From Noviherbaspirillum saxi (GTDB lineage: Bacteria > Pseudomonadota > Gammaproteobacteria > Burkholderiales > Burkholderiaceae_D), in NCBI RefSeq assembly GCF_003591035.1, contig NZ_QYUO01000001.1, positions 2,666,001 to 2,730,000 of the forward strand: DNA of 64,000 bases. Reading direction: 5' to 3'. Below the pieces are notes generated by a model that ran no database searches, had not been told where the DNA came from, and was given only the letters and a program-made list of their open reading frames with translations. Below are positions 40,471 through 56,389 of the stretch, piece after piece (position 1 is the stretch's first letter; every line of letters begins with the position of its first letter). The translations under genes and the position numbers were made by a program.

Positions 40471-40539
40471 CTAAGCTTCCGCACCGCAGTTGCAATTATC
40501 CGAGTCATCATCAATGTATCGACAATCACATTTCTTCAT
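40471..40539 (-). CDS. Possible 22-aa Cys-rich peptide overlapping the methyltransferase 3' end
   Basis: The minus-strand frame starts MKKCDCRYIDDDSDN and ends CNCGAEA, with two C-x-C pairs. Its ATG lies inside the last codons of the methyltransferase gene (13-bp overlap, +1 frame), so translation could be coupled. There is no separate ribosome site. It could be a metal-binding or modified peptide, or a frameshifted C-terminal tail of the methyltransferase, or chance. Confidence 0.25.
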   Translation of the reverse strand: MKKCDCRYIDDDSDNCNCGAEA

Positions 40540-41302
40540 CGGAGAGTTCATAGATGTTGACGTGATGCGCAATGCCCGTCGTTTTCTTGCAACGAATTGG
40601 GCTCGCACAGACGACCCAGCGCGAGACATCGGATTGGGCACAGTGCGAAGAGGAGACAATCTCGTATTGATATTCCTTTAGCCCATGTAATAAAACACGT
40701 CGATTCATTAAATTTGATGCCATAAAATATACTTTCCCATCCGGATTTAAGTAATCAGGAACATCGGCAAGAAAGCGGCCAAGCAACTCGCCATCAGGAT
40801 CACAAAGCGCGATTTCGGCTTCGTGATCGATGGCTTTGTCGAACAAAGGTGGATTAAAGAAAATGGTATCGAACAGTCTCCCTTGCAACCCCGAGAATAA
40901 ATCGCTCGATACCACTTCCGCTGTTATCTTCATACGATGAAGATTTTCAGCAGCGCTCGCAAGCGCAGCGTCTGAAATATCAGCAAGGGTCAGCTCCATT
41001 CCTGGTCGATAAAGCGAAATTCCCACATACCCGCTACCGCAACCGAGATCCAATACTGAAGCTCCAAGAAGTTTATTCGACACCGCCTCGACGAGGAAGC
41101 TCGAGGACAATCCTACTCCTGGATGATATACATTCGGCGGAAGAAAAAGCGTGATCCCATTGATCGATGCCACTGGTTGTGGTTTGGCCAGACAAGCGAC
41201 GTGCTGCGCATGGCTTGAAAACGTCTTGGCACTTGGTTTAATCCATGGCGCTGGAAAGTCTGGCGAGCCAACTGCGTCAATTTCCTTAGAGTTTTCATGC
41301 AT
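40526..41302 (-). CDS. Class I methyltransferase with NPP motif (MTS/PrmC-like)
   Basis: A 258-aa protein. VLDLGCGSGYVGISLYRPG is the SAM-binding motif, LTLADISDAALASAAENL the next strand, and FDTIFFNPPLFDKAIDHE contains the N-P-P catalytic motif that positions a planar nitrogen. This fits methyltransferases acting on glutamine side chains or nucleobases. The upstream domain includes NGITLFLPPNVYHPGVGLSSSFLVEAV. Codon use is more AT-rich than in genes before 40 kb, which suggests the transferred region already starts here. Confidence 0.82.
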   Translation of the reverse strand: MHENSKEIDAVGSPDFPAPWIKPSAKTFSSHAQHVACLAKPQPVASINGITLFLPPNVYHPGVGLSSSFLVEAVSNKLLGASVLDLGCGSGYVGISLYRPGMELTLADISDAALASAAENLHRMKITAEVVSSDLFSGLQGRLFDTIFFNPPLFDKAIDHEAEIALCDPDGELLGRFLADVPDYLNPDGKVYFMASNLMNRRVLLHGLKEYQYEIVSSSHCAQSDVSRWVVCASPIRCKKTTGIAHHVNIYELSDEEM

Positions 41303-41579
41303 CGCGGGTTCCCATGATTAAAGGATACATGGTGAGTAGCAACCCGGACACGTTAGTTCCACCACACAGGATGTAGAACATCAGCAAAGAGGCAGTTATT
41401 TTTCCCCTAAAGTGAATCAACGTTAGGTTTAATCACTTCGGATGGCATGGATTTATCCTGATACTGCATAAACCCAAGAAAGAAGTCGTGACTCCTCACT
41501 CATCAGCATCTACCTTCTCCGACGACGGGGAAAGGGGTCGAGTCTTGCCTTTTTCCTTACACGGATGTCGTCGTCAATT

Positions 41580-42321
41580 ATGTCTCGTCCACTACGGTTA
41601 GAATTTGAAGGAGCGTTGTACCACGTCACCTCGCGTGGTGACAGGCACGAACCGATCTTTGCGGTGGTTTTTGCTTACTGCCTCATGGGTAACCACTATC
41701 ATTTCGTGCTTCAAACCCGGCAGCCGAATCTCTCGCGTCTGATGCGTCACATCAATGGCGTCTATACCCAATCTTGCAATCGCCGTCATGGCAAGACAGG
41801 GCATTTGTTTCAAGGCCGGTTCAAGGCAGTGCTGGTGGATGAAGAGGCGTATCGCCTCGAGGTCTGTCGTTACGTGGATCTTAATCCAGTGCGCGCAGGG
41901 ATGGTGAAGCGCCCTCAGGATTAGGTGTGGAGCAGCTATCGGGCACACACTGGCCAAGCGGAAGTGCCCGTGTGGCTGAATAGTGCTGGCCTTCACCGTC
42001 AGATCGCGCCTCGTGCGCCGCGGCGTGAAGGGCCGGCGCGCTATGCTCAGTTCGTCGCGCACGGCAAAGGGATAATGCTGTGAGAAGAAGCGTTGTCGGT
42101 GCAGATTTACCTTGGCGGCAAAGCCTTCGTTCAGCGCATGTAGGCATATGCGGAGTCACCGGATGCGAAAGAAATTCCTCGCGCCCAGCGCCGGCCGGTG
42201 GTGCGGCCATTGCAGTGGTGCTTTGAGCAGTACGACAGGGATGTCGCAATAGCCAAGGCGTTCCTTGAAGGTGGTTATACGCCATCAGCGATTTCGGAAT
42301 TCGCCGGTTTGTCGGTATGCT
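41580..42321 (+). pseudogene. REP-associated tyrosine transposase (RAYT), decayed
   Basis: MSRPLRLEFEGALYHVTSRGDRHEPIFA and AYCLMGNHYHFVLQT are the RAYT (TnpA-REP, Y1 family) signature with the HxH metal site; GHLFQGRFKAVLVDEEAY.LEVCRYVDLNPVRAGMV follows. About 30 residues between RHEPIFA and AYCLMGN are deleted in frame, a TAG stops the frame at 41922, and the continuing frame reads VWSSYRAHTG ... to 42083. After a frame change, IYLGGKAFVQRM, a second stop and RPVVRPLQWCFEQYDRDVAIAKAFLEGGYTPSAI complete the usual C-terminus. It is inactive. Confidence 0.88.
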
Positions 42322-42999: not shown

Positions 43000-43174
43000 T
43001 AGAGCAGTTTCATCCTGACTGTACCGTCGATGCCGGACGCTTTGCCTGCGGCACCGCGTTGTCGAGGGGCCGCCGAGGCCTCCTTACCATGGCTCGCCAT
43101 GTTGGGTCGCCGCGCCTTGTTCCGCAGGCAAACCGCCTCGGCCTCGCCTGGCAAGTCAGGATGAAACTGCTCTA
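43000..43174. mobile_element. MITE-like element, 175 bp with 21-bp perfect terminal inverted repeats
   Basis: The left end 43000-43020 (TAGAGCAGTTTCATCCTGAC plus T) is exactly repeated inverted at 43154-43174. The outer TA on each side is probably the target duplication, leaving 19-bp repeats that begin GAGCAGTTTCATCC. The inside is GC-rich and non-coding, with further self-complementary pieces (GCCTGCGG against CCGCAGGC). The size, perfect ends and lack of a gene fit a miniature element mobilised by an IS5-like transposase. It ends 46 bp before the first gene of the glutathione cassette. Confidence 0.8.
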
Positions 43175-43220: not shown

Positions 43221-45179
43221 ATGCTTAACAAGAAACGCATTGTAATTATCGGTGCTGGCTTTTCTGGAACTCTGACTGCTATCCGCCTCTTGCATTTTTG
43301 CGAAAGCGAAGTAGAGATTTGTCTGATTGAGAAGGACGATGCATCAAACTATGGAGGCATCGCGTTTGGGCAAACATCAACTACTTGGGCACACTTACTT
43401 AACATTCAGGCCGGCCGTATAACTCTGTTCCGCGAGCGCCCCGAGGACTTTCTCACATGGGTTAACGAAACCGCCGATCGCGCAACGTGGCCGCCAAAAT
43501 GGAAGAATCATGCATTTAGTTTGTCATGTATGGTTCCCCGGCGTATTTACAGCCAATATCTCGCATATCGTCTAGGCGAAGCCGCACGCCTCGCGCATGC
43601 TGGAGTCACCTTTGTAGAGCTGAAGGGCGAAGTGCTCGACGCTCGGAGGGAGAACCAGCATTGGCGCGTCACCTACCTTGCCAGCGATTGCAGTGACGCA
43701 AAAAGCGTTTCGTTGCCTGCAAACTATATCGTCTTCGCGACGGGCCACTTGGCCCCGATGACTAAACCATTCTATGAAACGGTCAGGGATTCCGAGCGCT
43801 TTATATTCAACCAGTATGCGCGCCGTGGTCGGGAGCTCCTGTCAACCGTGAAGCCAGACGAAAAGGTGATGGTCGTCGGTTCAGGACTTGCCTCGTTTGA
43901 TGCTGTCGTATCGCTCGTCGAGCAAGGACACACGGGGCCGGTCACCATTTGTTCCCGTGCTGGTCACATGCACGCATCTTATCCGCTTGATCATCAGCAC
44001 GATATTATCGCAGTGCGGCGGCCACCGTTCATGGACGCCGAGAATCTATGCATAGACACCGTCGTCGACGGGGTTAAGGGTGAGTTCGCTTATCTGCGCG
44101 ACCTGTTTGCGAATCAATACGGCGTCCCCGAGCAGATCATTCCGGAACGCATCATCAAAGCATGGGAACCTTATGTCGCCGAACTGGTGACCAGAATGGA
44201 AGCAAACGATGTTCGTTGCCTTCTAAATAAATACAAAAGTCTTATTGTTAGTTCTCGTACCAGTACGGTTCCCGCTATTGGAAATGTCATCCGCACCCGA
44301 TTGAAAACCGATTCCCAGTCCGCGGGACAAGTCACAATCCTTGCCGCGCAAATCCAACACATTCATCGCGTCAACGATGACAACAGGCTTTGCGTTACTT
44401 TCAACGGCAATCAGGATCCGCAAATTTTTGACCGCATCATCAATTGTCTAGGCCATGCCACCGATTACGGCAACACATGCAATAGCCTCTGGACGAGTAT
44501 GATCCAAGAGCAAAACCTTGCGACACCTCATATAAAGACTGGACGGGGCCTAGAAGTCACTCAACATGGTGAATTGCTTGCTCTAGAAGGCGCGCCATCA
44601 ACCAATCTGTTTTGTGTTGGTCCGATGAGACAGGGGGACGAGATCGCGCGCCGCGGACGGCTCGGAGCCTTCGTATTTAGTATCGGAACGTTGAGGAACC
44701 AGTGTTTCGACATAGCGTTGGAGATCCGGCGACGCCTCAATCAACCGGTATTGCAGCAAACAATCCGCACACCTGACAATCTTCATACGTGCTGGGAAAG
44801 CAGCGTGCGCTGGTTTATTGAAACAAACGAACTGAACCTGCAAGAAGACGAACTAGCACAGTTTCGTAGATACGCATCACCTAATGACGGGCATTCACTC
44901 TTCGCCGCTTACCAAGGATTCTTTAGAACGCAAGACCATCGGTTGCGGCAGCCCTTCGCAGAAGAGATAGCGCGACAAAAGATTTCTCTTGCTAAAGAAA
45001 TCACCAGACGTTTCTCCATTGAGAATACACGCGCGCAATTCTTGTGCGAGGTTTTCTCAAATCTCCTGGAAAAACACGCCGTGCATTCTCTATGTGATAT
45101 CTCGAAGTTGGCAAAGTGGTCGGTGCCGCAATATGCGAATCATGTTCGCAATGTACACGCCCAGTTTGAACCTGCATGA
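43221..45179 (+). CDS. FAD/NAD(P)-binding protein (NAD_binding_9-like)
   Basis: A 652-aa flavoprotein. RIVIIGAGFSGTLTAIRLL is the dinucleotide-binding motif, GIAFGQTSTTWAHLLNIQAGRITLF and RIYSQYLAYRL follow the PF13454 pattern, VMVVGSGLASFDAVVSL is a second nucleotide-binding motif (about residues 215-231), and LFCVGPMRQGDEIARRG closes the FAD fold. A C-terminal part of about 120 residues is unusual and helical. Relatives occur in specialised metabolite and siderophore loci, but the reaction is not known. It is first in the co-directional glutathione cassette, where it might oxidise thiols or hydroxylate a substrate. Confidence 0.85.
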   Translation: MLNKKRIVIIGAGFSGTLTAIRLLHFCESEVEICLIEKDDASNYGGIAFGQTSTTWAHLLNIQAGRITLFRERPEDFLTWVNETADRATWPPKWKNHAFSLSCMVPRRIYSQYLAYRLGEAARLAHAGVTFVELKGEVLDARRENQHWRVTYLASDCSDAKSVSLPANYIVFATGHLAPMTKPFYETVRDSERFIFNQYARRGRELLSTVKPDEKVMVVGSGLASFDAVVSLVEQGHTGPVTICSRAGHMHASYPLDHQHDIIAVRRPPFMDAENLCIDTVVDGVKGEFAYLRDLFANQYGVPEQIIPERIIKAWEPYVAELVTRMEANDVRCLLNKYKSLIVSSRTSTVPAIGNVIRTRLKTDSQSAGQVTILAAQIQHIHRVNDDNRLCVTFNGNQDPQIFDRIINCLGHATDYGNTCNSLWTSMIQEQNLATPHIKTGRGLEVTQHGELLALEGAPSTNLFCVGPMRQGDEIARRGRLGAFVFSIGTLRNQCFDIALEIRRRLNQPVLQQTIRTPDNLHTCWESSVRWFIETNELNLQEDELAQFRRYASPNDGHSLFAAYQGFFRTQDHRLRQPFAEEIARQKISLAKEITRRFSIENTRAQFLCEVFSNLLEKHAVHSLCDISKLAKWSVPQYANHVRNVHAQFEPA

Positions 45180-45228
45180 CAACCAATCGCCCCGGGCGGC
45201 ATAACGTCCGGCAAGCCGCGGACATTCT

Positions 45229-45891
45229 ATGATCACATTGTGCTATTCCCCGGGGTCTTGTTCTCTCGCTCCTCACATCGTGCTAAGAGAAATTGGCGTC
45301 CCTTTTACGGCAAAACGGTTCGCAGCCGATCTACGTGAGAATTACAGCGACGAGTATTTACAAATTAATCCGAGAGGGCGCGTTCCTGCCTTGATGATTG
45401 ACGGCTTCACGATGACGGAAACCCCAGCAATTCTTGCTTACCTGGGACGCCGTTTTCCGGACTCAGAGCTGTTCCCGTCAAACTCCCTTGAGAGTGAAGC
45501 GCGTTGCTTGGAACGGTTAGCCTGGTCGTCCAATACCGTGCACGTCGCGTATGCCCAGATCCGGCGCGCTGAGCGATATGTTCTCAATCCCGCGGATTAT
45601 GCAACTGTGAGAGATGGAGGGCATCATTATTTTCAACGTTGCATTGCCGAGATGGATGAGCATCTGCAACAGAATCGATTCGCTCTTGGTGACCGATATT
45701 CTGTTGTGGATCCGTTCTGGCTTGTCTTCTATCGATGGGGATGCCGCCAGAGTTACGAGATGGCGGAGCGATTTCCGGCCCTTACCACATACGTGACGCG
45801 GCTTGTCGCTAGGCCAGCCGTGCAACAGACACTCGACGCCGAAGGTATCTCGATATGGCCAAATGCAGGGCGGCCAGATAGGAAAACATGA
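45229..45891 (+). CDS. Glutathione S-transferase
   Basis: A 220-aa protein of normal GST length. The N-terminal thioredoxin-like domain has CYSPGSCSLAPHIVLREIG with the beta-class cysteine/serine active-site region, NPRGRVPALMIDG with the cis-proline and MTETPAILAYLGRRFP with the gamma-Glu binding Glu-Thr/Ser. The C-terminal helical domain has ALGDRYSVVDPFWLVFYRWG. It joins glutathione to electrophiles. Its stop overlaps the MFS gene start by four bases, linking conjugation to export. Confidence 0.93.
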   Translation: MITLCYSPGSCSLAPHIVLREIGVPFTAKRFAADLRENYSDEYLQINPRGRVPALMIDGFTMTETPAILAYLGRRFPDSELFPSNSLESEARCLERLAWSSNTVHVAYAQIRRAERYVLNPADYATVRDGGHHYFQRCIAEMDEHLQQNRFALGDRYSVVDPFWLVFYRWGCRQSYEMAERFPALTTYVTRLVARPAVQQTLDAEGISIWPNAGRPDRKT

Positions 45892-47066
45892 ATCAGTGCA
45901 GAAAAAACACGCTAATCCTCTCAATCGCTCAGGCACTCCTTCTTGTTAACAACATTACGCTGATTTCAATCAATGGCCTGCTCGGTTTTGCGCTGGCCGC
46001 CGACAAGCGATTAGCGACCCTTCCAGTGATGACCTACGTCATCGGTGCGGCCTTGTCGACGATCGCCGCATCCAGTTTCATGAAGCACTATGGGCGCCGG
46101 GCAGGATTTACCGTGGGTTCCCTTTTCGCTGTTGTAGGTGTGTCACTTGGCGCGGTGGCCGTTCTTATGCAGAATTTTTGGCTGCTATGCGCCGCAACTC
46201 TTGTATCCGGCGTCTATAACGCATTCGGCAAGTATTACCGTTTTGCGGCTGCCGATACTGGACCGGCAGATTTCAAGAGCACGGCGATTTCACTGGTACT
46301 TGCCGGCGGAATTGTTGGAGGCGTACTGGGGCCTGAGGCAAGTAAGATAACCCGCGATCTAACGCATGTTCCTTTCTTTGCAACGTACATTGCATTAATT
46401 CTGTTCGCGCTGTTCTCGTTAGCGGTCGTGCGGTTCCTCGATATACCGCAACCTAGCGAAAAGGAGAAGACAGCAAAAGGCAGGCCGCTGCACCAAATCA
46501 TGCGGCAGCCGACCTTCATCGTGGCCGTGCTCTCTGCAGCAGTCGGCTACGGCGTGATGAACTTGATGATGAGTGCAACGCCGCTGGCAATGGACGTATG
46601 CGGCCTGCCTTTCAATGATGCCGCTCTGGTCCTGCAATGTCATGTAATCGGCATGTATGCGCCTTCATTTTTCACCGGGTCGCTGATCAAGCGCTTTGGG
46701 GTACTCAAAATTCTGATCGCCGGACTTGTTTTGATGTTCGCGTGCGTCGGCGTAGCATTGTCGGGAACGACGTTCTCACACTTTTGGTGGAGCTTGGCAA
46801 TTCTCGGTGTCGCGTGGAATTTTCTTTATATCGGCGGCACGACTTTGCTAACGGAGTCCTACGATCCAGCGGAGAAAGCGGCAGTACAGGGCATCAACGA
46901 CTTCTTGATATTTGGAACCACTTCAATATCAGCGCTTGCGTCGGGCATCGTCATCACCAGCCGGGGTTGGGCATCGTTGGCGACGATCTCTCTTCCCTTG
47001 CTCGGCATCACGATGGCAGCCGTGTTAAGCCTTGCTATCAAGCGCCGATTCGTAGTGGCATCCTAG
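45888..47066 (+). CDS. MFS transporter
   Basis: A 392-aa membrane protein with about twelve helices. KHYGRRAGFTVGSLFAVVG corresponds to the conserved loop between helices 2 and 3, GGIVGGVLGPEASK lies in helix 5, and SLIKRFGVLKILIAG repeats the loop motif in the second half. It resembles drug or metabolite exporters of the YwoG/NarK-like breadth; the direction is inferred. It is coupled to the GST gene and lies in the glutathione cassette. Confidence 0.9.
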   Translation: MNQCRKNTLILSIAQALLLVNNITLISINGLLGFALAADKRLATLPVMTYVIGAALSTIAASSFMKHYGRRAGFTVGSLFAVVGVSLGAVAVLMQNFWLLCAATLVSGVYNAFGKYYRFAAADTGPADFKSTAISLVLAGGIVGGVLGPEASKITRDLTHVPFFATYIALILFALFSLAVVRFLDIPQPSEKEKTAKGRPLHQIMRQPTFIVAVLSAAVGYGVMNLMMSATPLAMDVCGLPFNDAALVLQCHVIGMYAPSFFTGSLIKRFGVLKILIAGLVLMFACVGVALSGTTFSHFWWSLAILGVAWNFLYIGGTTLLTESYDPAEKAAVQGINDFLIFGTTSISALASGIVITSRGWASLATISLPLLGITMAAVLSLAIKRRFVVAS

Positions 47067-47489
47067 TGTTTGTTGTGTCTGTTGATTCCTTCGCAAAGTC
47101 TTCGTACCGTGGCAAGGATGAAATCAGCGGTGATAGTGCGCACAAAGGGTTTGCCGAGACGCAGTTCGTAGTGAAGCCAGTCAGACGCTGTGCAATGAAT
47201 CGGCGGCGTCAATTATTCGCGGCCGCGTCGGTTGCTTCAAAGCGCCGTGACATGTTGCTGTCGGGTATGGTCGGCCGAGGAAGCCAACAAAATCAGTTTT
47301 GCGAATTCAGCACCGCTGGCAGTGACGGCTAACGACTTATTGACTTTAACTGCGATTGTTCTACTTGTGCCAGCACCAATTCACCGTGGTCGGTCCGATG
47401 TCATGACAGCACTTCCTGCCGTAACGATATCTAGAATCCACACAATATCCGCGCCATTAATTAATAAGACAGGACATTAGGAGATGCTG
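47067..47489. other. Gap inside the cassette, no gene recognised
   Basis: About 420 bases separate the MFS and PLP genes. Short frames (for example 47232-47480 plus) have no ribosome site and no family pattern. This is the widest native gap in the cassette and may contain a second promoter or the trace of a lost small gene. Confidence 0.45.
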
Positions 47490-48716
47490 ATGCATGTTTC
47501 ATCGCCGAACGAAGAGACTCAATGGTTACATGACAGCTATGAACCACCAAGCGGTTTTTCCAGTCTTTCCACGCCGGTCCACCATGCCTCGACCGTGGTC
47601 TTTGACACCGTCGATGCCTACCAGAACCGAGGGGCGCGCAGGTATGACGGCTATACTTACGGGTTATCTGGCACGCCGACAAGCATGGTATTGGCACACA
47701 GAGTTGCACAACTAGAAGCCAGCCACCATCAGGCCGTATTGACACCCTCCGGGCTATCCGCCATTTCGTTAGTCTACCTCAGTTGCCTTAGGCAGGGCGA
47801 CCACGTCCTGGTCAGTGACAACGTATATGGGCCGAGCCGTCACCTGTGCCTGAACGTTCTCCAAGGAATGGGCGTTGAAATTTCCTTCTATGATGCTCTT
47901 GCGGGTTCAGGTATAGAGTCGCAGATTCGCTCGAACACGCGTCTCATATGGGTCGAGTCGCCGGGGTCAATTACGATGGAGATAGCGGACGTCAGCGCCA
48001 TCGCCGCAATAGGAAGGAAACGCGGAATCCTTGTCGCCGCAGACAACACTTGGGCTGCCGGACTGCATTTCAAACCTTTACGTCATGGATGCGACATTTC
48101 GGTCCAGGCACTGACCAAGTATGTAGGAGGGCACTCCGATCTGCTGCTCGGTGCTATTGCCGTAAGCAATGAAATTCTCTATCGGAAAATTAAGGATACG
48201 GCTCACAGCCTCGGCTTGGGCGTATCTTCTCAGGACTGCTTCCTAGCCCTGCGGGGTTTATCGACGCTCAGCGTTCGCATGCGCCAGCACCAGGCAAGCG
48301 CACTAGAAATTTCCAGATGGCTGCAACAGCGATCGGAGATTAAAAAGGTGATTCATCCCGCCTTGGCATCTTGTCCGGGGCATGAAATATGGCGCCGGGA
48401 TTTTTCCGGTTCTAGCGGCCTCTTCTCTATTGTCCTGCAGCCACAGTATTCCAAAAGATCTGTTGACACGATGATCGAGCGGCTGCGCTATTTCCGGATT
48501 GGCGCAAGTTGGGGGGGCGCGATCAGTCTCGCATTACCGCTCGATCCTAGTGACCTGCGAACGGCTGCCCCATGGAATGAGGATGGCTACCTGATCCGCT
48601 TGAGCATTGGCCTGGAAAACGTCGCAGATCTGATCGCCGACCTGCGCGCCGGACTGGATAGTCTACTGAGCGTTCAGGCAGTAGGTGACAGGCAAATGGC
48701 GTATAAAGAAGGATGA
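47490..48716 (+). CDS. PLP-dependent Cys/Met-metabolism enzyme (cystathionine beta-lyase-like C-S lyase), 3' end altered by an IS
   Basis: About 408 aa, of the MetC/MetB family. TPVHHASTVVFDT, RYDGYTYGLSGTPTSMVLAHRVAQLE and LTPSGLSAISLVYLSCL are the N-terminal and PLP-phosphate regions; VAADNTWAAG precedes SVQALTKYVGGHSDLLLG, where the lysine (codon 212 from the ATG at 47484, 210 from 47490) is the PLP lysine. AGGAG six bases before ATG 47490 favours that start. The native frame is interrupted at 48665 by an IS630 element, so the last 17 residues (LSVQAVGDRQMAYKEG) come from the IS. Removing the IS restores RAGLDSLVAG and a stop at 49779. Activity could survive. Expected reaction: beta-elimination of a cysteine thioether. 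Confidence 0.9.
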   Translation: MHVSSPNEETQWLHDSYEPPSGFSSLSTPVHHASTVVFDTVDAYQNRGARRYDGYTYGLSGTPTSMVLAHRVAQLEASHHQAVLTPSGLSAISLVYLSCLRQGDHVLVSDNVYGPSRHLCLNVLQGMGVEISFYDALAGSGIESQIRSNTRLIWVESPGSITMEIADVSAIAAIGRKRGILVAADNTWAAGLHFKPLRHGCDISVQALTKYVGGHSDLLLGAIAVSNEILYRKIKDTAHSLGLGVSSQDCFLALRGLSTLSVRMRQHQASALEISRWLQQRSEIKKVIHPALASCPGHEIWRRDFSGSSGLFSIVLQPQYSKRSVDTMIERLRYFRIGASWGGAISLALPLDPSDLRTAAPWNEDGYLIRLSIGLENVADLIADLRAGLDSLLSVQAVGDRQMAYKEG

Positions 48717-48738
48717 CCTTGCTGCAGGAGGTTATCTC

Positions 48739-49257
48739 ATGGCAAAGAAACGGTATAAGCGGGATTTTGAAGCACTGGAGCAACGTCGCAAGATTGCAGC
48801 GCGGCTTCTTGCGAAAGGGATGAAGCAGGCAGAGGTGGCCCGTGAACTTCATGTAAGCCGGCAAAGCGTGTCTGTCTGGGCTAAAGCGCAGGCCGTCGAC
48901 AAGGAAGGTTGGCGTCGCAAGCCATTGGATTCTTGCCCTGGCCTGAATCCGGCGCAACGACGGTGGCTGTGCAAGCTTCTCGTCAGGGGAGCACAAGCGA
49001 ACGGATTTCCCAATGATGCCTGGACACTGCGTCGCATTGGGCAACTGATCGAGCAGGAGTTCGGCATCGCGTATGGAAAGACAAATATCTGGTTGCTGCT
49101 CAAGGCAATGGGGTTTTCCTGCCAACGTCCTGCGGGGCGTGCGAGCCAGCGCAATGAAGAAGCGATACGGCAGTGGCGACTCAAACGCTGGCCGATGCTC
49201 AAAAAAAAGCCCGCCGGGAGAGAAGAATCCTGCTCTTCATCGACGAGAGCGGCTTGA
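48739..49257 (+). CDS. IS630 transposase OrfA (helix-turn-helix part)
   Basis: 172 aa in frame 0. AARLLAKGMKQAEVARELHVSRQSVSVWAKAQ is a helix-turn-helix for binding the IS ends, and WTLRRIGQLIEQEFGIAYGKTNIWLLLKAMGFS a second DNA-binding domain. AGGAGG lies seven bases before ATG 48739. Near its end the heptamer A AAA AAG (49203-49209) allows ribosomes to slip by -1 into OrfB. Confidence 0.93.
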   Translation: MAKKRYKRDFEALEQRRKIAARLLAKGMKQAEVARELHVSRQSVSVWAKAQAVDKEGWRRKPLDSCPGLNPAQRRWLCKLLVRGAQANGFPNDAWTLRRIGQLIEQEFGIAYGKTNIWLLLKAMGFSCQRPAGRASQRNEEAIRQWRLKRWPMLKKKPAGREESCSSSTRAA

Positions 49258-49742
49258 GTGAGAGGCCTACTCGAATCAAGCCATGGGCACCGGTGGGATG
49301 CACACCGGTACTGCGGTACAGTTTCAACTGGAAGCAGCTGACGGTGATTGCTGCGCTGGGTGTGCGCAATTTCTATTTCCGATTCGTGTACGGGCCGATT
49401 GGCAAATCTGAGCTCGTGCATTTTCTGAAGATGCTGCACAAGAAGCTTCATCGGAAACTGCTGGTTATTTGGGATGGTCTGCCTCAGCATAAAAGCACGC
49501 TTGTCGCCGATTATCTGAAGTCAACATCGGGAAAGGTCGTTGTCGACTATTTGCCTGGCTACGCACCTGAACTCAATCCCTCTGAATACATCTGGGCCTA
49601 TATGAAGCAACGAGAACTAGGCAACTTATGTCGCAGCACGATTGGCGAGGTCAAGGCATTCGCCTGCGGTCGCCTGAAATCTATGCAGCGTCGCGTCGGA
49701 TTGATAGCATCGTTTTGGAAGCAGGCTGGCCTGAAACCCTAA
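49173..49742 (+). CDS. IS630 transposase OrfB (DDE catalytic part), made by -1 frameshift
   Basis: Up to 189 aa as its own frame, but most likely expressed as an OrfAB fusion of about 334 aa. ILLFIDESGLSERP carries the first catalytic Asp, LVIWDGLPQHKS the second, and DYLPGYAPELNPSEYIWAYMK the third acidic residue of the IS630 DDE/DDD domain. The frame from 49173 lacks a ribosome site, which supports expression by frameshifting at 49203-49209. Confidence 0.92.
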   Translation: MATQTLADAQKKARRERRILLFIDESGLSERPTRIKPWAPVGCTPVLRYSFNWKQLTVIAALGVRNFYFRFVYGPIGKSELVHFLKMLHKKLHRKLLVIWDGLPQHKSTLVADYLKSTSGKVVVDYLPGYAPELNPSEYIWAYMKQRELGNLCRSTIGEVKAFACGRLKSMQRRVGLIASFWKQAGLKP

Positions 49743-49819
49743 TGTCACCTATATCCTGAACGCGCAGTAGTGGCCGGCTAATCTGCATCTTAAATGAATT
49801 TTCGGAACAAGCTTCATTC

Positions 49820-50515
49820 ATGAGCCACCTACTCCGTTCCAACTTTGAAGAGGATCACACTCGGCATGTCATGGAAGGTACGGAGCTGGCGCCGCACTTG
49901 CAAACTGCTGCACAGCTAGAGGCTTCACTGTCCGCGGTGCTTGACCGGTGTGTGCCAGGCGCCGATATCTGGCTCTTTGCTTACGGTTCCCTAATGTGGA
50001 ATCCGATGATTGTTTATGAAGAATCTTGTTCTGCGATTCTCTTCGGATATCACCGAGGCTTCTATCTCAGATCGCGCATCCACCGAGGCACTCCTCAGAA
50101 TCCAGGTCTAGTGCTGGCGCTGGATAGCGGCGGGTCTTGTCGTGGCATTTGTTACCGGATTGCTGCAGCGCGGGTGAAAGATGAGCTGCAACTTCTTTGG
50201 CGGAGGGAAATGCTAGGCGGGTCATACAAAGCGCGATGGCTTGATGTTCATACCTGCCGCGGAAGGGTTGCAGCGCTGGCATTCGTTATAGACCGCCAGC
50301 GTCCTACGTATGCGGGAAAGCTGACGGACGACGAAATCGTAAGTTGTTTGCACGCCTCCTATGGGCTTTCGGGATCCGGCGTTGATTACCTACTGCAGAC
50401 ACATCGGACCTTGACAGGAATGGGCATTTCGTGCCCGTCACTGACAAAGCTGATCAAACTAATTCGAGTTGAATCGGATGATAACCATAAGAGTTTGGGA
50501 TTGGAACCAGCATGA
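49820..50515 (+). CDS. ChaC-like gamma-glutamylcyclotransferase
   Basis: A 231-aa protein. IWLFAYGSLMWNP is the substrate-loop signature of the ChaC family, and FGYHRGFYLRSRIHRGTPQNPGLVLALDSGGSCRGICYRI and LLWRREMLGGSYKARWL continue the ChaC pattern. ChaC enzymes split glutathione, or its conjugates, into 5-oxoproline and Cys-Gly. The weak ribosome site and the IS just upstream may have altered its expression. Its stop overlaps the antiporter start by four bases. Confidence 0.92.
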   Translation: MSHLLRSNFEEDHTRHVMEGTELAPHLQTAAQLEASLSAVLDRCVPGADIWLFAYGSLMWNPMIVYEESCSAILFGYHRGFYLRSRIHRGTPQNPGLVLALDSGGSCRGICYRIAAARVKDELQLLWRREMLGGSYKARWLDVHTCRGRVAALAFVIDRQRPTYAGKLTDDEIVSCLHASYGLSGSGVDYLLQTHRTLTGMGISCPSLTKLIKLIRVESDDNHKSLGLEPA

Positions 50516-51846
50516 ATGAAAACATAACTAGCGCTGCGCACGCCGTCGCTGCCGCAGCACAACAATCGGCGGTAGGCAGTCAGGCCGAACACTTAGTGCT
50601 TCACCTCGTGTATCAGCTGATCGTCATATTGATACTTACACGCGTAGTGGTATGGTTCACAAAGCGCTGCTTGGTGCAAACGGACGTGACCGGTGAAATA
50701 CTTGCCGGTCTGGTCCTTGGGCCGAGCTTGGTCGGTGCCATGTTTCCCCAGTGGTTTTCGTCTCTGTTTGTACCAGAAACCTCCACAATTTTCGTTGGGC
50801 TTGCCCAAACGGGGCTCATTCTATTGATGTTCCAGATCGGCCTCGAGTTTGAGTTCAAGACCAATCTGTCAGGGCGGATGAGCCCTGTGGTGCTGATCAG
50901 CGCTGCGGGCATTGTCATCCCGTTTTTGGCAGGGTATGTGACCGCTCCATGGTTCTGGGAACAGATGCCCGGGGCACGTCCGGACCAACTGGCGTTTCGT
51001 CTCTTCTTCGCGACAGCGATGTCGATTACCGCCATTCCTATCCTAGGTCGCATTTTCATGGAGCTGGGTCTTTCGCATACCCGGACCGCCGCGCTGACGA
51101 TCGGTTCCGCCGCCGTCGATGACATTTGCGGATGGCTGGTCCTAGGTGTAGTGTCCGCTCTCATTACTGCAAAATTCGAATTCGGTACACTCGCTGTTCG
51201 GGTAGGACTATTGCTAGCCTATGTGGTCTTTGTCATGCTTCTTTTGCGTCCCATCCTTCTGAAGCGCCTGCAGCGACGCATGAACGCACAGAAACATCTA
51301 TCAGGATCTTCTATCGCCCTGATCCTGATCTTGCTTTTCACTTCTGCCGCGGTCACAAGCAACCTTGGCGTTTTCGCGATCATAGGCGGCTTCGTCATCG
51401 GGGTTGCACTACACGAAAACCGTGAGTTTGTCCGAGCGTGGAAGGAACGCGTCGGCGGACTCGTGAATGCGTTCTTTCTGCCGATATTCTTCGCGTACAC
51501 GGGCCTCAGAACTGACATCGGAACACTTTCTGGCAGTGACGCATGGTTGGTCTGCCTATTGATATGCATCATTGCCTTCGCCAGCAAATTTGGTGGTGCC
51601 TACGTTGCGGCCAGACTGGCAGGCGAACCACACCGCAGTGCACTGACGATTGGCGTATGCATGAACACGCGAGGGCTGATGGAGTTGATTGCTCTCAACA
51701 TTGGCTATGATCTCGGCATCTTGCCGCGTCAAATGTTCACGATGTTGGTCATTATGGCAATTGCTAGCACCGTCATAGCCACTCCTCTGATTCGCTGGCT
51801 GATGCGAAGCGAATGCAAGCTGGCGTCCGAAGCGCCAGGTCTCTAA
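50512..51846 (+). CDS. CPA2-type cation:proton antiporter (Kef/NapA-like), without nucleotide-binding tail
   Basis: A 444-aa membrane protein with about twelve helices. ITGEILAGLVLGPSLVG-like VTGEILAGLVLGPSLVG, GLILLMFQIGLEFEF, SITAIPILGRIFMELG and AAVDDICGWLVLG are CPA2 hallmarks; the DD of VDDICGW and the N-R region NTRGLMELIAL are the ion-path residues. KefB/KefC carry a C-terminal RCK domain that binds glutathione; it is absent here. Translation is coupled to the ChaC gene, which points to a link with electrophile or glutathione stress. Confidence 0.92.
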   Translation: MNENITSAAHAVAAAAQQSAVGSQAEHLVLHLVYQLIVILILTRVVVWFTKRCLVQTDVTGEILAGLVLGPSLVGAMFPQWFSSLFVPETSTIFVGLAQTGLILLMFQIGLEFEFKTNLSGRMSPVVLISAAGIVIPFLAGYVTAPWFWEQMPGARPDQLAFRLFFATAMSITAIPILGRIFMELGLSHTRTAALTIGSAAVDDICGWLVLGVVSALITAKFEFGTLAVRVGLLLAYVVFVMLLLRPILLKRLQRRMNAQKHLSGSSIALILILLFTSAAVTSNLGVFAIIGGFVIGVALHENREFVRAWKERVGGLVNAFFLPIFFAYTGLRTDIGTLSGSDAWLVCLLICIIAFASKFGGAYVAARLAGEPHRSALTIGVCMNTRGLMELIALNIGYDLGILPRQMFTMLVIMAIASTVIATPLIRWLMRSECKLASEAPGL

Positions 51847-51901
51847 AAGCCGTCGCTAGGCCTATATGTAATGCCGAACCCGCATTTTCGGGAACCAGAT
51901 A

Positions 51902-53479
51902 ATGAGCAGCTTATTTACTAGTCGTATCAGGATGTTCGCCGAGAGGGGCTCGCGACATATACTTGCCGAGGGGCTACGAGGCGTGGAACGAGAGGCGTTG
52001 CGCATATGTCGTGAAGGCGTGCTCGCGACGACGAGGCACGCGAAAAACCTGGGTTCTCCCCTGACGCATCCGTATATCACGACAGATTACTCGGAGGCCC
52101 TGCTGGAACTGATCACGCCTCCAGAGCGGGATGTGCGTAACGTACTTGAAAATCTCGATGTGTTACATCGGTATGTGCACGCTTCCATTGGGACGGAGCT
52201 ACTCTGGAATCAATCCATGCCCTGTCCGCTTCCGCCTGAGGATGTAATTCCGATTGCGTGGTACGGAACCTCCCATACCGCCATGCTTAAGCACGTGTAC
52301 CGCCGCGGCCTTGCGCTACGGTACGGCAAGAGCATGCAGTGCATCGCTGGAATCCATTACAACTTTTCCGTTTCCCCTTCCTTATGGACGCTGTTGAAGG
52401 AGGCCATAACAGGAACTGGTTTTCCCGACGAACTACGGTCAGCGGGGTACATTAGTCTGATGCGTAATTTCCGTCGCTTCAGCTGGCTGCTGATGTATTT
52501 GTTCGGTGCATCGCCAGCGATGTGCAGTAATTTTGCGGGGAATGACGTCTACCCCTTTCACACAATGTCCACGGACAGGCTCTATCTTCCTAACGCCACC
52601 AGTTTGCGCATGAGCCGCATAGGCTACCGGGCAAATGCACAGGCAAGCATCGCCGAGCACTTCAATAGCGTCGAGGACTATATCGAATGCATCGCTGCAG
52701 CAGTCAATGAGCCTTACCCACCATATGCCGAACAGGGTGCATACCATAATGGCGAATGGACACAAATCAATACCAATCGTCTGCAGCTGGAAAATGAATA
52801 CTACTCGGCTATACGGCCAAAGCAAGTCACCTTGCCGGACGAGCGACCGCTACAAGCGATATACCGTCGCGGTATCCAGTATGTGGAGGTACGCTGCATC
52901 GATATCGATCCGTTCGAGCCGCTCGGCATCAGCCTTGAGACAACTCGATTTCTCGAAGCGTTTCTGCTGTACTGCGTCTTGGAGGAAAGCCCTTTGACAA
53001 GCTATGATGAAGCGTGTGAGAACGCGGAGAACTTCTCCCGAGCCGTGGAAATGGGCCGATCACCTGGACTTACTTTGCACCGTCAGAGAAAAGCTATCCC
53101 CCTCCGAGACTGGGGCCTGCACTTAATGGAGAAGATTGCCGAAATTGCCAATCTACTCGACGGCTGCGACGACAAGGAAGGTTACATGACCGCCGTGCTG
53201 GCCCAGCAACGGAAGTTAAACGACACGGAACTGACACCATCGGCGCGGGTGCTCAAGGGGCTGCAGGCAAAAGGCGGTTCTTTCTTCCGTTATACGTTAG
53301 AGCAAAGCGCCATCCACACGGCATATTTTCGAGCCCGCCCGCTGCCAGATGTAACCGCCGCGCATTATGCAAGCCTAGCGCACTTGTCGGTAAATGCTCA
53401 GGCCAAGCTGGAAGAAGCGCAGACTGGAGAGTTTGAACAGTACATCTCTCGCTATCAAAGCTTGTCACTTGCGCTCTGA
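51902..53479 (+). CDS. gshA: Glutamate-cysteine ligase (E. coli-type GshA)
   Basis: A 525-aa protein of the gamma-proteobacterial GshA type. GVEREALRICREGVLATTRH, LTHPYITTDYSEALLELITPP and LPPEDVIPIAWYGTSH form the Glu/ATP site; CIAGIHYNFS, LMRNFRRFSWLLMYLFGASPA, QINTNRLQLENEYYSAIRPK and GIQYVEVRCIDIDPF follow in canonical order. It makes gamma-glutamylcysteine in the cytoplasm, the first step of glutathione synthesis. Burkholderiales normally have another GshA elsewhere, so this may be a dedicated, transferred copy. No gshB is in the window. It is followed after 59 bp by the M14 gene. Confidence 0.95.
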   Translation: MSSLFTSRIRMFAERGSRHILAEGLRGVEREALRICREGVLATTRHAKNLGSPLTHPYITTDYSEALLELITPPERDVRNVLENLDVLHRYVHASIGTELLWNQSMPCPLPPEDVIPIAWYGTSHTAMLKHVYRRGLALRYGKSMQCIAGIHYNFSVSPSLWTLLKEAITGTGFPDELRSAGYISLMRNFRRFSWLLMYLFGASPAMCSNFAGNDVYPFHTMSTDRLYLPNATSLRMSRIGYRANAQASIAEHFNSVEDYIECIAAAVNEPYPPYAEQGAYHNGEWTQINTNRLQLENEYYSAIRPKQVTLPDERPLQAIYRRGIQYVEVRCIDIDPFEPLGISLETTRFLEAFLLYCVLEESPLTSYDEACENAENFSRAVEMGRSPGLTLHRQRKAIPLRDWGLHLMEKIAEIANLLDGCDDKEGYMTAVLAQQRKLNDTELTPSARVLKGLQAKGGSFFRYTLEQSAIHTAYFRARPLPDVTAAHYASLAHLSVNAQAKLEEAQTGEFEQYISRYQSLSLAL

Positions 53480-53538
53480 AGAGCGAAACTCTGGACGTCT
53501 TTGGGGACGGGCAGTTTTGCTTGTCTAATTTCCGAACC

Positions 53539-54669
53539 ATGTCAATTTACATTAGCCAGGATTTCGATGGTGGCGCAATCGTCGCGGCATCGGCGGCACA
53601 TCCCGAGGACATTTCACTGATGTTGCGGCCGGATTCGTCCGCGAAGTTTTTACAATGGTTTTATTTTCGCGTCCAAGGTGCGCAGGCGCACGAATGCGCG
53701 ATTCGGATATTGAATGCGGGGCAGTCAACATATCCGGCGGGATGGGAGGATTATCGGGCTGTCGCAAGCTATGACCAGCAACATTGGATCCGAGTGCCGA
53801 CAGATTATGACGGGCAGATACTGACGATCCGACATGCACCTGAAAGAAATAGTGTCTACTACGCGTATTTTGAACCTTATTCTCTCATTCGGCACCGGTC
53901 GCTATTGGAACGTGCCGCGGCATGCCCGCATATGCAGGTTGAATGTCTTGGAAAGACAATTGAGGATCGGGATATTGATCTCATTGTCGTAGGGGACGAA
54001 AGAAAGCGCAGGAAAATCTGGATCACTGCGCGTCAGCACCCCGGCGAAACAATGGCCGAATGGTTTGCCGAAGGCATGGTGGACGCATTACGAAATTCGC
54101 AAAACCCTATGGTGCGAGGCCTGTTGGCCCATGCAGTGTTTTATATTGTACCGAACATGAATCCTGACGGCTCTGTACGTGGCAACCTGCGTACCAATGC
54201 GGCAGGCGCCAACTTGAACCGCGAATGGCTTTCCCCTTCACTTGAATCAAGTCCTGAAGTTTGGCACGTCAAGAGGCGTATCGAAAAAGTAGGCTGCGAT
54301 GTCTTCTTGGATGTGCATGGCGATGAGCGCCTACCATATGTGTTCGCCGCCGGCGGTGAGATGCTTGATAACTTCGAGGCTGGAAAAGCGGCGCATCAGC
54401 AACGTTTTATTGACTGTCTGGCTGCGGCGAGCACGGAATTCCGACCGACGGGATGCTATCCACCTGGAAAATACCAGAAGTACGGCCTTGAATTGGCGAG
54501 TACATACATGGAACTCGCGTTTGATTGCGTAGCGCTAATGTTAGAAATGCCGTTCAAGGACAATGCATGCGCACCGAATATGAGAACTGGATGGAGCGGT
54601 GGACGCAGTGCAAAATTCGGACAACAGACATTGGTCGCGCTCGCTGCATTTGATTCGCTCGGGTTTTGA
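53539..54669 (+). CDS. M14 family zinc carboxypeptidase (cytosolic carboxypeptidase-like)
   Basis: A 376-aa protein. An N-terminal beta-rich domain (about 1-120, with QWFYFRVQGAQAHE and YFEPYS) precedes the M14 domain. Zinc ligands are H167 and E170 in ARQHPGETMAEW and H260 in DVFLDVHGDE; NMNPDGSVRGNLRTNAAGANLNREW is the substrate site and E336 in MLEMPFKD the catalytic base. This layout is that of the CCP/M14D group. No signal peptide is visible. In this cassette it could remove the C-terminal glycine from a glutathione or Cys-Gly conjugate. It is the last gene; an IS3 remnant abuts its stop. Confidence 0.9.
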   Translation: MSIYISQDFDGGAIVAASAAHPEDISLMLRPDSSAKFLQWFYFRVQGAQAHECAIRILNAGQSTYPAGWEDYRAVASYDQQHWIRVPTDYDGQILTIRHAPERNSVYYAYFEPYSLIRHRSLLERAAACPHMQVECLGKTIEDRDIDLIVVGDERKRRKIWITARQHPGETMAEWFAEGMVDALRNSQNPMVRGLLAHAVFYIVPNMNPDGSVRGNLRTNAAGANLNREWLSPSLESSPEVWHVKRRIEKVGCDVFLDVHGDERLPYVFAAGGEMLDNFEAGKAAHQQRFIDCLAAASTEFRPTGCYPPGKYQKYGLELASTYMELAFDCVALMLEMPFKDNACAPNMRTGWSGGRSAKFGQQTLVALAAFDSLGF

Positions 54670-54674
54670 GGGAC

Positions 54675-54858
54675 TGCCTTTTTAGAATGTCGCGCTCCAT
54701 CTTCACGCGCGCCAGCTCCGTTCGCAAGCGGCTGATTTCCATCTGCTCGGCGCCGACTGCCTTGCCGGCCTCCTTGAGCTGGCCTTGTGCCTGTGCCTTG
54801 ATCCAGTTGTGAAGTGTCTATTCCGCAGCGTGTAGCGCGCTCCGCTAATCTTTGACAT
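54675..54858 (-). pseudogene. IS3-family OrfA remnant
   Basis: The minus strand reads MSKISGARYTL after GGAGAAC, then jumps after a deletion into another frame with HNWIKAQAQGQLKEAGKAVGAEQ and MEISRLRTELARVKMERDIL, all typical of IS3 OrfA. It breaks off at the A-rich position where IS3 elements normally frameshift. No OrfB follows; the M14 gene begins instead. Confidence 0.8.
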
Positions 54859-54959
54859 CTTGTTCTCCCCCCGCACTTCCCCAAAAAGTCCTCCGCTACA
54901 TACCGAAAGAAAATATCCAGTGAAACAACTCAAACTGATGATGATTAGCACGTTGATTA

Positions 54960-55357
54960 CAGTCGGTGGCTGCGCGACACCCGGTCGCTCAGCTTGCGGG
55001 TTGCAGCAAACAGGCGCTGCGCTTCATCGACGGTGACGATATCGGGCAGCCGCTGCGCCTTCGGCTTGATCAGGTGCGGCATGACCCACGGTTTGCGCAG
55101 CACATGGACAGTGTAAAACTTGAAGCCGTAAAGGTCGAGCTTGACCGCGCTCCAGGAGTGGGTGGCGACCAGATCGCTGAATAATCGGTGAGCTGGGCTT
55201 CGGACAGGTCGTCGATGCAGTGCAAGAAATACGTCCCCATGCGCCGGATGGCGCGGGCATAGGCATCTATGGTCTTGGCTTGCGGCCCTTTGAGTTTGAG
55301 GTGCTTGAGATGGCTCTGGCACTGCCGGTCGAAGTGCGCGGTGCGACTCGTCTTCAT
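54960..55357 (-). pseudogene. Tyrosine recombinase/integrase N-terminal remnant (IS91-associated type)
   Basis: ATG 55357 begins MKTSRTAHFDRQCQSHL, with LKLKGPQAKTIDAYARAIRRMG as the SAM-like core-binding domain. A missing T near 55181 shifts the frame after QLTDY; the other frame continues FSDLVATHSWSAVKLDLYGFKFY ... AQRLPDIVTVDEAQRLFAATRKLS and then loses similarity near 54985. The catalytic domain is absent. This marks the right edge of the island. Confidence 0.8.
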
Positions 55358-55533
55358 GCTGGTTTATCCTCACGAAATGTTGCACAATCAACCGCTTGGG
55401 AACAAGGGGACGGATGTGCAGAATAATTCGTGTCGCCAGAGTAGGCGATTTCTCCGCGTAGCGGCTTCGTTCAACATGACATTTGATTCTGATGCCTTCG
55501 GCACGGATCAATTCACACGTTAATTCTCAAGAC

Positions 55534-55917
55534 ATGAGCGTATTTGACGGACAACGGATCGTAAGCAAGCGGAAGCGCATGTTGGCCTATTGCGAACAGC
55601 ATGGAATCGTTGTGCCGTCGGGATTCCATGACTTGGAAACGGTTTATCCGATCGCGGTTGTAGACATATCGATTCCGGAAAGACCTAGGCTGCTGCCAAC
55701 AACTTTTTATAATACGGCTGGTGTTTTGGAATACTTTAAAGCTAAAAACAAGTACCCTGGAAATTATAGGGTGATGGATTTTAAGCGGGGATTTGAGTAC
55801 GTCCTGGCATCGCCAATAAATTATCAGCGTCGAGCTGATTTTAATAGCCGTAAGGATGTTGATGATGCTCGGTGGCTTAACTCACGTCGTTGCACGCCGA
55901 CGCAAATGGGCCCCTAA
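55534..55917 (+). CDS. Hypothetical protein
   Basis: A 127-aa protein (MSVFDGQRIVSKRKRMLAYC ... ) with a mixed, moderately AT-rich composition. A conserved-looking core is VYPIAVVDISIPERPRLLPTTFYNTAGVLEYF. No family, membrane segment or catalytic motif is recognised. The last dozen residues (NSRRCTPTQMGP) look unlike the rest, so the C-terminus may be altered. It lies upstream of a DUF4177-like pair. Confidence 0.55.
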   Translation: MSVFDGQRIVSKRKRMLAYCEQHGIVVPSGFHDLETVYPIAVVDISIPERPRLLPTTFYNTAGVLEYFKAKNKYPGNYRVMDFKRGFEYVLASPINYQRRADFNSRKDVDDARWLNSRRCTPTQMGP

Positions 55918-55964
55918 GGCATTCGGCCGCTTATCTACCAACTCAAACAAAAACAAGGAAGCGC

Positions 55965-56177
55965 ATGAAACAGTACAAAGTGGTTGTTTATCAAGAGGGG
56001 ATGTTGGGTTCGCTACTGCTAGGCGCATCGAAGGTAGATCCAGTCCGTTTCACTGACTTTCTAAACAAGAACGCAAGCCAAGGTTGGCGCGTGATCACGA
56101 TGGAAAAAGACATCCGCCGCATGCTGCTGTTGTGGAAGCGCGAAGCCTACGTAGTTGTGCTGGAAAAAGACGCATGA
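55965..56177 (+). CDS. DUF4177-like small protein
   Basis: A 70-aa protein: MKQYKVVVYQEGMLGSLLL, then DPVRFTDFLNKNASQGWRVITMEKDIRR, and a strand ending EAYVVVLEKDA. The LN...QGWRV pattern and the strand-helix-strand size fit DUF4177. AAGGAAG precedes ATG 55965. Its stop overlaps the start of the next gene (ATGA), so the two are coupled. Function unknown. Confidence 0.75.
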   Translation: MKQYKVVVYQEGMLGSLLLGASKVDPVRFTDFLNKNASQGWRVITMEKDIRRMLLLWKREAYVVVLEKDA

Positions 56178-56389
56178 AGCTCGGCTTAATCAGCGCGCTG
56201 TCCATTGCCGTCGGATGGGCCATACTCGCCATTGCCCAACTGTGGCTGCAGCCATTATCGGCAGAGAACTTCATAAAGGTATCTGTTACAGCGGGCATCC
56301 TTGTGGTCATCATTCTGGTCGTCACACTGGCGGCACGAGAGTACTTATCTGAAAAGAAGATGAAGGACGATGGGTTCATCGATGGCTAA
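56174..56389 (+). CDS. Small two-helix membrane protein
   Basis: A 71-aa protein with two hydrophobic helices (about 5-25 and 36-54) and a charged tail (EYLSEKKMKDDGFIDG). No family name is recognised. It overlaps the DUF4177-like gene by four bases, so the two products probably work together at the membrane. Confidence 0.7.
   Translation: MKLGLISALSIAVGWAILAIAQLWLQPLSAENFIKVSVTAGILVVIILVVTLAAREYLSEKKMKDDGFIDG

Follow-up and report, generated by a model that had tools for sequence, protein, structure and literature searches.

We analysed a stretch of 64,000 nucleotides from Noviherbaspirillum saxi (contig NZ_QYUO01000001.1, positions 2,666,001 to 2,730,000; hereafter the window), in which eight forward-strand genes at window positions 43221-54669 form a cassette that may be a horizontally acquired small-molecule island working through glutathione. 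In this reading, to which we give a probability of roughly 0.4 from sequence evidence, a monooxygenase, a glutathione S-transferase (GST), trimming enzymes, a C-S lyase and an exporter would act in turn, and we infer a chemistry of glutathione conjugates. By their sequences, the cassette genes are real, and they look intact where motifs were checked. An earlier note, made from the letters of the window, had proposed a glutathione-centred module of this kind; the gene set, the conserved motifs, a second GshA and the signs of acquisition fit that proposal, whereas a GliT-like role of the flavoprotein and the removal of glycine by the M14 enzyme found no support.

Gene content and layout of the cassette

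Based on Pfam and NCBIfam searches, the eight open reading frames (ORFs) belong to the families that the earlier note had named, and the cassette is arranged as follows.

43221..45179, + strand: flavin adenine dinucleotide (FAD)/NAD(P) flavoprotein, 652 aa, predicted class B monooxygenase with FzmM/SidA-like fold (PF13454)
45229..45891, + strand: GST, beta-class, GstA-like (Pfam/NCBIfam, motif residues)
45888..47066, + strand: major facilitator superfamily (MFS) transporter, MFS_1, 392 aa (Pfam; 4-bp overlap with the GST gene)
47484..48716, + strand: Cys/Met pyridoxal phosphate (PLP) enzyme, cystathionine beta-lyase (MetC) type, 410 aa (NF005456, Lys212)
48664..49770, + strand: IS630-family insertion sequence, ends approximate (HTH_33, DDE_3, inverted repeats, other genomic copies)
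49820..50515, + strand: ChaC-family gamma-glutamylcyclotransferase (PF04752; YGSL at 55, Glu130)
50512..51846, + strand: CPA2 cation:proton antiporter, 444 aa (PF00999; 4-bp overlap with the ChaC gene)
51902..53479, + strand: glutamate-cysteine ligase (GshA), E. coli-type (TIGR01434)
53521..54669, + strand: M14 carboxypeptidase, cytosolic-carboxypeptidase type (PF00246 and PF18027, motif residues)

Five of the seven junctions are tight, comprising the GST-MFS and ChaC-antiporter overlaps and gaps of 49 bp (FAD-GST), 55 bp (antiporter-GshA) and 41 bp (GshA-M14). The eight forward-strand genes and their domains had thus been read correctly, but not the small gaps throughout, since breaks of 417 bp and 1103 bp separate MFS from PLP and PLP from ChaC, respectively. 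Promoter patterns (7 found, 9.2 expected) and terminator patterns (16 found, 13.8 expected) were both at shuffle level.

Most of the PLP-ChaC gap is an IS630-type element with a two-frame transposase, whose overlapping frames match HTH_33 (48685-49257) and DDE_3 (49173-49742). The element carries 28-nt inverted repeats (48663-48690 and 49743-49770), and comparison with other genomic copies places its limits near 48664 and 49770. Elsewhere in the genome, one near-full-length copy at 97% identity and several partial matches are present. The final 16-17 codons of the PLP ORF fall within the insertion, which had been overlooked when the gene was first described as C-S lyase-like; the family assignment itself stands. 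Because the NCBIfam matches stop at residues 393-394 of 410, the catalytic part of the enzyme is complete. In the absence of the IS630 element, the PLP and ChaC genes would be close neighbours.

Motif residues are kept in the PLP enzyme, M14, ChaC and the GST. The PLP enzyme qualifies as a cystathionine beta-lyase, with 505.4 bits to NF005456 (cut-off 500), 413.8 bits to TIGR01324 (cut-off 365.9) and its PLP lysine, Lys212, in place. In the GST, Cys11 and His105 align with the pair typical of the beta class, whose roles we take them to have. ChaC retains YGSL at 55 and Glu130, presumably the catalytic glutamate, and its closest relatives are 50-54% identical. GshA is full-length and scores 564.6 bits to TIGR01434 (cut-off 393.3). 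The M14 enzyme, with PF18027 and PF00246, keeps H173, E176, H266 and E342, to which we assign the usual roles of the motif, zinc ligands among them; it is of the cytosolic-carboxypeptidase type, and the proposed trimming of glycine from glutathione conjugates finds no support here. The label Kef-like was too specific for the antiporter, in which Pfam recognised PF00999 alone and no TrkA-N domain; no family of the KefF type occurs among the cassette proteins.

In its predicted model, the FAD protein adopts a class B fold that contains two dinucleotide-binding domains, and its best fold match is the aspartate N-hydroxylase FzmM, with 401-404 residues aligned (Foldseek). Its invariant Asn61 falls near the place of the catalytic Asn62 of the aspartate N-hydroxylase, a match of position only. 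Many arginines are kept in 15-16 of 16 sequences compared; in FzmM/CreE, an arginine cluster of the helical domain binds aspartate. At the sequence level, the likeness to FzmM, CreE and PcxL is barely detectable (profile E 0.0019, ranked behind generic FAD enzymes). The motif CxxC is absent from all eight cassette proteins; together with the N-hydroxylase-like fold, this rules out the FAD protein as the counterpart of GliT that it had been proposed to be. Given this likeness to FzmM, the scaffold could be a free amino acid. Beside the FAD protein, no lyase of the FzmL/CreD type was found among the cassette proteins. It points to a clade of flavoproteins with the FzmM fold, of which no characterised member was met in the searches made.

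The longest complete ORF of the window encodes 773 aa and is sensor-kinase-like, too short for a nonribosomal peptide synthetase (NRPS), a size limit that leaves room for a small cyclodipeptide synthase. This agrees with the earlier statement that no NRPS scaffold gene is in the window.

Acquisition of the block and the copies of the host

The block was apparently acquired from outside, as a unit, because its GC content at third codon positions (GC3) is low and the matching site is empty in three congeners. GC3 is 0.522-0.611 in all eight cassette genes, against a mean of 0.718 and a minimum of 0.638 in a comparison set of 20 large ORFs that we picked elsewhere in the window, outside the region. 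The flanking genes, encoding a PRC-barrel protein (39540-40439) and MipA (56729-57562), are 16.3 kb apart here and 2153, 2403 and 2444 bp apart, on one contig each, in three congeners (G008, G009 and G010). Between the two genes in these congeners, no match to a cassette protein, the neighbouring methyltransferase or the transposase was found by a search that recovered PRC-barrel and MipA as positive controls. Altogether, 14 congeners were searched with PRC-barrel and MipA; both were on the same contig in 3 and on different contigs in 2, and one or both were not found in 9.

The host already carries gshA-gshB, MetC, M14 and ChaC, which makes the cassette copies extra ones. Its own gshA is of the PF08886 type and is directly followed by gshB (TIGR01380; G000:C1:475231-477413). 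Thus, the cassette GshA, which is E. coli-type, belongs to a different family and is ruled out as a duplicate, and the GshA of the earlier note is a second one. Between the MetC of the host and the PLP enzyme of the cassette, identity is 47%, a second host ChaC is 39% identical to that of the cassette, and the host M14 paralogue, encoded elsewhere, is 57% identical, which excludes a recent duplication of the latter.

The cassette GshA, M14, ChaC and FAD proteins stand outside their relatives. The median identity of GshA to its relatives is 51, compared to 64 within the set (16 of 19 loci with a long enough frame). The corresponding values for M14 (119 top hits) are 59 and 72; for ChaC (119), they are 46 and 51, and for FAD (62), 47 and 75.

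Three further features lie between the PRC-barrel gene and the cassette.

40526..41302, - strand: MTS-type S-adenosylmethionine-dependent methyltransferase (GC3 0.459; divergent orientation; unmatched in the three congeners with an empty site)
41565..41924, + strand: Y1 (IS200-like) transposase fragment (PF01797)
43000..43174, no strand: palindrome (arms of 36 nt, 83% complementary) whose right end lies 46 bp upstream of the start codon of the FAD gene

The methyltransferase gene lies in the variable region, and its membership in the cassette is uncertain. Weak matches to it occur beside 3 of 19 GshA relatives and in one of 7 antiporter regions read in other genomes. To the right of M14 (54670-56389) are two small ORFs, 54957-55511 and 55483-55917, with no Pfam match; mobile-element remains are suspected in this segment by eye only.

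Proposed route and rival explanations

We propose a route that would begin with a primary metabolite, for instance a free amino acid, whose nitrogen (or sulfur) the FAD protein, as a class B monooxygenase, would oxygenate to give an electrophile. A primary metabolite as substrate would explain the lack of an NRPS-sized scaffold gene. The extra GshA, together with the GshB of the host, would raise glutathione, which the beta-class GST would join to the electrophile. Subsequently, ChaC would take off the gamma-glutamyl group as 5-oxoproline, M14 or host peptidases would take off the glycine, and the MetC-type PLP enzyme would release a free thiol from the cysteine conjugate. The MFS transporter would export this thiol, and the CPA2 antiporter would offset the resulting ion or pH stress. 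In a narrower version, which we hold to be improbable, the flavoprotein would be an N-oxygenase that makes an oxime-like electrophile from a free amino acid (or amine), and the conjugate would end as an exported thiohydroximate-type thiol, a bacterial counterpart of the glucosinolate core pathway; such a route would fit the window because it needs no scaffold synthase. If the proposal is true, the cassette would be a bacterial module with glutathione as the sulfur donor for a small molecule and without a scaffold synthase. In that case, all proposed steps except that of GshB would lie on one acquired block of 11 kb, which could be tested by the transfer of a single cassette.

The proposal draws on the domain content and the kept motifs, the signs of acquisition, the divergence of the extra copies from their relatives and the likeness of the FAD model to FzmM. 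It also draws on two findings described below, the transporters behind the actinobacterial FAD genes and the biosynthetic-type run around the nearest antiporter. Several observations weigh against this proposal. To our knowledge, M14 enzymes of the cytosolic-carboxypeptidase type are not known as Cys-Gly peptidases. As a rule, ChaC acts strictly on glutathione and GshA strictly on glutamate plus cysteine, a specificity that equally fits plain glutathione supply and breakdown. The fold match to FzmM is moderate (Foldseek TM-score 0.45-0.49), with the FAD model beyond residue 507 uncovered, and the IS630 element may split the unit in two. No second cassette, nor two of its glutathione genes adjoining, was present in the loci read. 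Among the actinobacterial loci of the FAD protein described below, no GshA, ChaC, GST, PLP or M14 match was detected, and therefore the FAD chemistry need not involve glutathione. Likewise, the 19 GshA relatives whose flanks were read lacked the other seven cassette genes within about 1.5 kb on each side, less in one, and in the 14 genomes with homologues of both antiporter and ChaC, the two were on separate contigs in 8 and lay between 297 kb and 3 Mb apart in 6.

These loci come from searches of different reach. The FAD protein was sought in a collection of genomes from 84,980 species by two peptide patterns only, so that relatives lacking both would be missed; 193 stretches matched, 14 were confirmed, and these gave 12 loci (L025-L036), all Actinomycetota by title. 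In all 12, a His_Phos ORF comes next after the FAD gene (assigned by Pfam in L026, about 576 aa, with 11 homologues). The His_Phos ORF is followed by a CPA2 antiporter in five (L026, L029, L031, L032 and L035), by an MFS transporter in six (L033 by Pfam, five by homology) and by the contig end in L027. The MFS protein of the window has no match there, and the resemblance of the transporters is at the family level. An insertion sequence transposase match was present in one of the 12. An association of FAD with an exporter or antiporter thus recurs, while that of FAD with glutathione genes does not. Other ORFs near the actinobacterial FAD genes include an AhpC type, recognised by Pfam in L026 and by homology in 7 further loci. 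In L026 there are also an ORF whose weak OsmC match stays below the cut-off, with homologues in 9 further loci, and an MctP-type symporter, with homologues in most other loci.

For GshA, 33 of 100 relatives gave a match. Among 294 genomes of the family, the own one included, the antiporter matched in 18 (E 1e-60), ChaC in 34 (E 1e-30) and the PLP enzyme in 199 (E 1e-110), which we read as the housekeeping MetC. The antiporter regions read in 7 genomes held no other cassette gene. Scattering of the same genes in relatives, which the earlier note had named as evidence against its module, is what we found for these homologues; it weakens the module and does not kill it, since the homologues are distant (34-64% identity) and not proven orthologues. 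On plasmids, searches with four proteins (FAD, ChaC, antiporter and PLP) found nothing of at least 60% identity, and one FAD and three ChaC plasmid neighbourhoods showed no other cassette match. On a Pseudosulfitobacter plasmid (L054:5453-10588), some 2.7 kb separate ChaC from a gene with the annotation FAD/NAD(P)-binding, to which the FAD protein of the window has no match; a link of this ChaC to tda genes was ruled out, no tda-annotated gene being present in the 20 kb read. Among open-licence papers, we found neither a bacterial glutathione cassette of such make-up nor a parallel that joins an antiporter to self-resistance.

Some antiporters of the same branch appear, by their sequence context, to sit amid biosynthetic-type genes. 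The closest one among the 294 genomes (64% identity; G239, L047) ends an eight-gene same-strand run with the look of a biosynthetic cluster (L047:8997-18900), which encodes an amidase, a halogenase-like flavoprotein, AhpC, a HEAT protein, an FAD-linked oxidase, a methyltransferase, an N-acyl amino acid synthase of the FeeM type and the CPA2 antiporter. Four others, at 43-47% identity (L048-L051), were compared through ten neighbours that we picked; L050 lies near ketoacyl synthases and an acyltransferase, L051 near an acyltransferase and L049 near a below-cut-off ApeP-like match, and L048 has none of these.

A possible but doubtful alternative is a resistance island resembling TdaR1-R3, in which GshA, GST, ChaC, MFS and the antiporter would guard against an electrophile or protonophore, either from outside or self-made; a comparable protection by the gamma-glutamyl cycle has been proposed for tropodithietic acid. 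One source describes TdaR3 as a ChaC homologue, TdaR2 as similar to Zn-dependent endopeptidases, and a raised tolerance of E. coli upon induction of tdaR1-R3 (PMC7497051). In the cassette, ChaC stands together with a Zn peptidase, with GshA and with a cation:proton antiporter, the block bears signs of having been acquired as a unit, and near the actinobacterial FAD homologues the antiporter (5 of 12), the AhpC-type ORF and the ORF with the weak OsmC match recur. Nevertheless, the monooxygenase, the MetC-type lyase and the M14 carboxypeptidase are not obviously needed for resistance, and no regulator gene was recognised by Pfam among the eight genes. Additionally, no 5-oxoprolinase of the PxpA type was found in the host genome, other types not having been searched. 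The proton-sink model is itself disputed, a later study having seen no accumulation of gamma-aminobutyric acid in the supernatant (PMC5421792), and the partners dsbA, trx, ahpD, oye and kefF, which PMC7119367 assigns to allicin-resistance islands, are absent among the cassette proteins. If this explanation were to hold, the cassette would be a new gene combination for protection by the gamma-glutamyl cycle.

We regard as unlikely a chance collection of two or more sub-operons, such as FAD-GST-MFS and ChaC-antiporter-GshA-M14, placed side by side with a stray PLP gene. It would agree with the breaks of 417 and 1103 bp, the mobile-element remains on the left flank, the scattered homologues in relatives, and the named relatives, which are actinobacterial for FAD and Oxalobacteraceae-type for M14. 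The long PLP-ChaC gap, however, is mostly IS630, and the glutathione-linked GshA, GST and ChaC share one eight-gene same-strand stretch with its mostly tight junctions. The presence of two GC3 groups, 0.52-0.53 (FAD, GST, ChaC and M14) and 0.58-0.61 (MFS, PLP, antiporter and GshA), would favour the chance collection, but they are interleaved rather than split by sub-operon. Quite improbable, in our view, is a use of glutamate as a carrier or protecting group, in which the GshA paralogue would add a gamma-glutamyl group to an amino acid or amine that has been N-oxygenated, for the ChaC paralogue to remove, glutathione having no direct part. ChaC-type enzymes are of the glutathione type and not of the butirosin type, which counts against it, and the GST and the C-S lyase would have no part to play. 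Also against it, GshA is full-length and above the TIGR01434 cut-off, and the cassette is without the FzmL/CreD-type lyase. In its favour, GshA and ChaC have both diverged from their relatives and share one same-strand stretch. A glutamyl carrier serves in the pathway of FzmM, the closest match of the FAD model, and in butirosin, glutamylation is followed by deglutamylation (PMC6133997).

Comparison with known systems

Like the cassette, the PfAR-1 allicin-resistance islands of Pseudomonas are acquired, include a cation:proton antiporter and share the theme of glutathione (PMC7119367). The cassette differs from them in its lack of dsbA, trx, ahpD, oye and kefF and of TrkA-N in its antiporter. 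TdaR1-R3, the tropodithietic acid resistance proteins of Phaeobacter, share with it a ChaC homologue whose partner resembles Zn peptidases, and they are proposed to act in proton balance (PMC7497051). The cassette adds GshA, GST, the lyase and the monooxygenase; no tda genes were recognised in it, no search aimed at them having been made in the genome. With the N-oxygenases FzmM, CreE and PcxL, the FAD protein shares a predicted fold of about 400 residues and an invariant asparagine near the flavin site, and unlike FzmM and CreE it is without an FzmL/CreD lyase partner.

In fungal gliotoxin biosynthesis, the gli enzymes carry out the sulfur-installing steps. The GST (GliG), cyclotransferase (GliK), peptidase (GliJ), C-S lyase (GliI) and MFS transporter (GliA) of that pathway are matched in the cassette at the level of family. 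In contrast to gliotoxin, there is no NRPS-sized gene in the window and no FAD protein with CxxC, the PLP enzyme is of the MetC type, and GshA and the antiporter are extra; gliotoxin synthesis is not known to have a counterpart of the antiporter.

The glucosinolate core pathway, alongside which the Allium alliin pathway is grouped, takes an amino acid as scaffold, forms an aldoxime by CYP79, receives sulfur from glutathione through a GST and employs a C-S lyase (PMC5116641). The cassette differs in being bacterial and in having a flavoprotein in place of CYP79. In plants, the gamma-glutamyl peptidase GGP1 fills the slot of the cassette ChaC, and SUR1 has the role of the C-S lyase.

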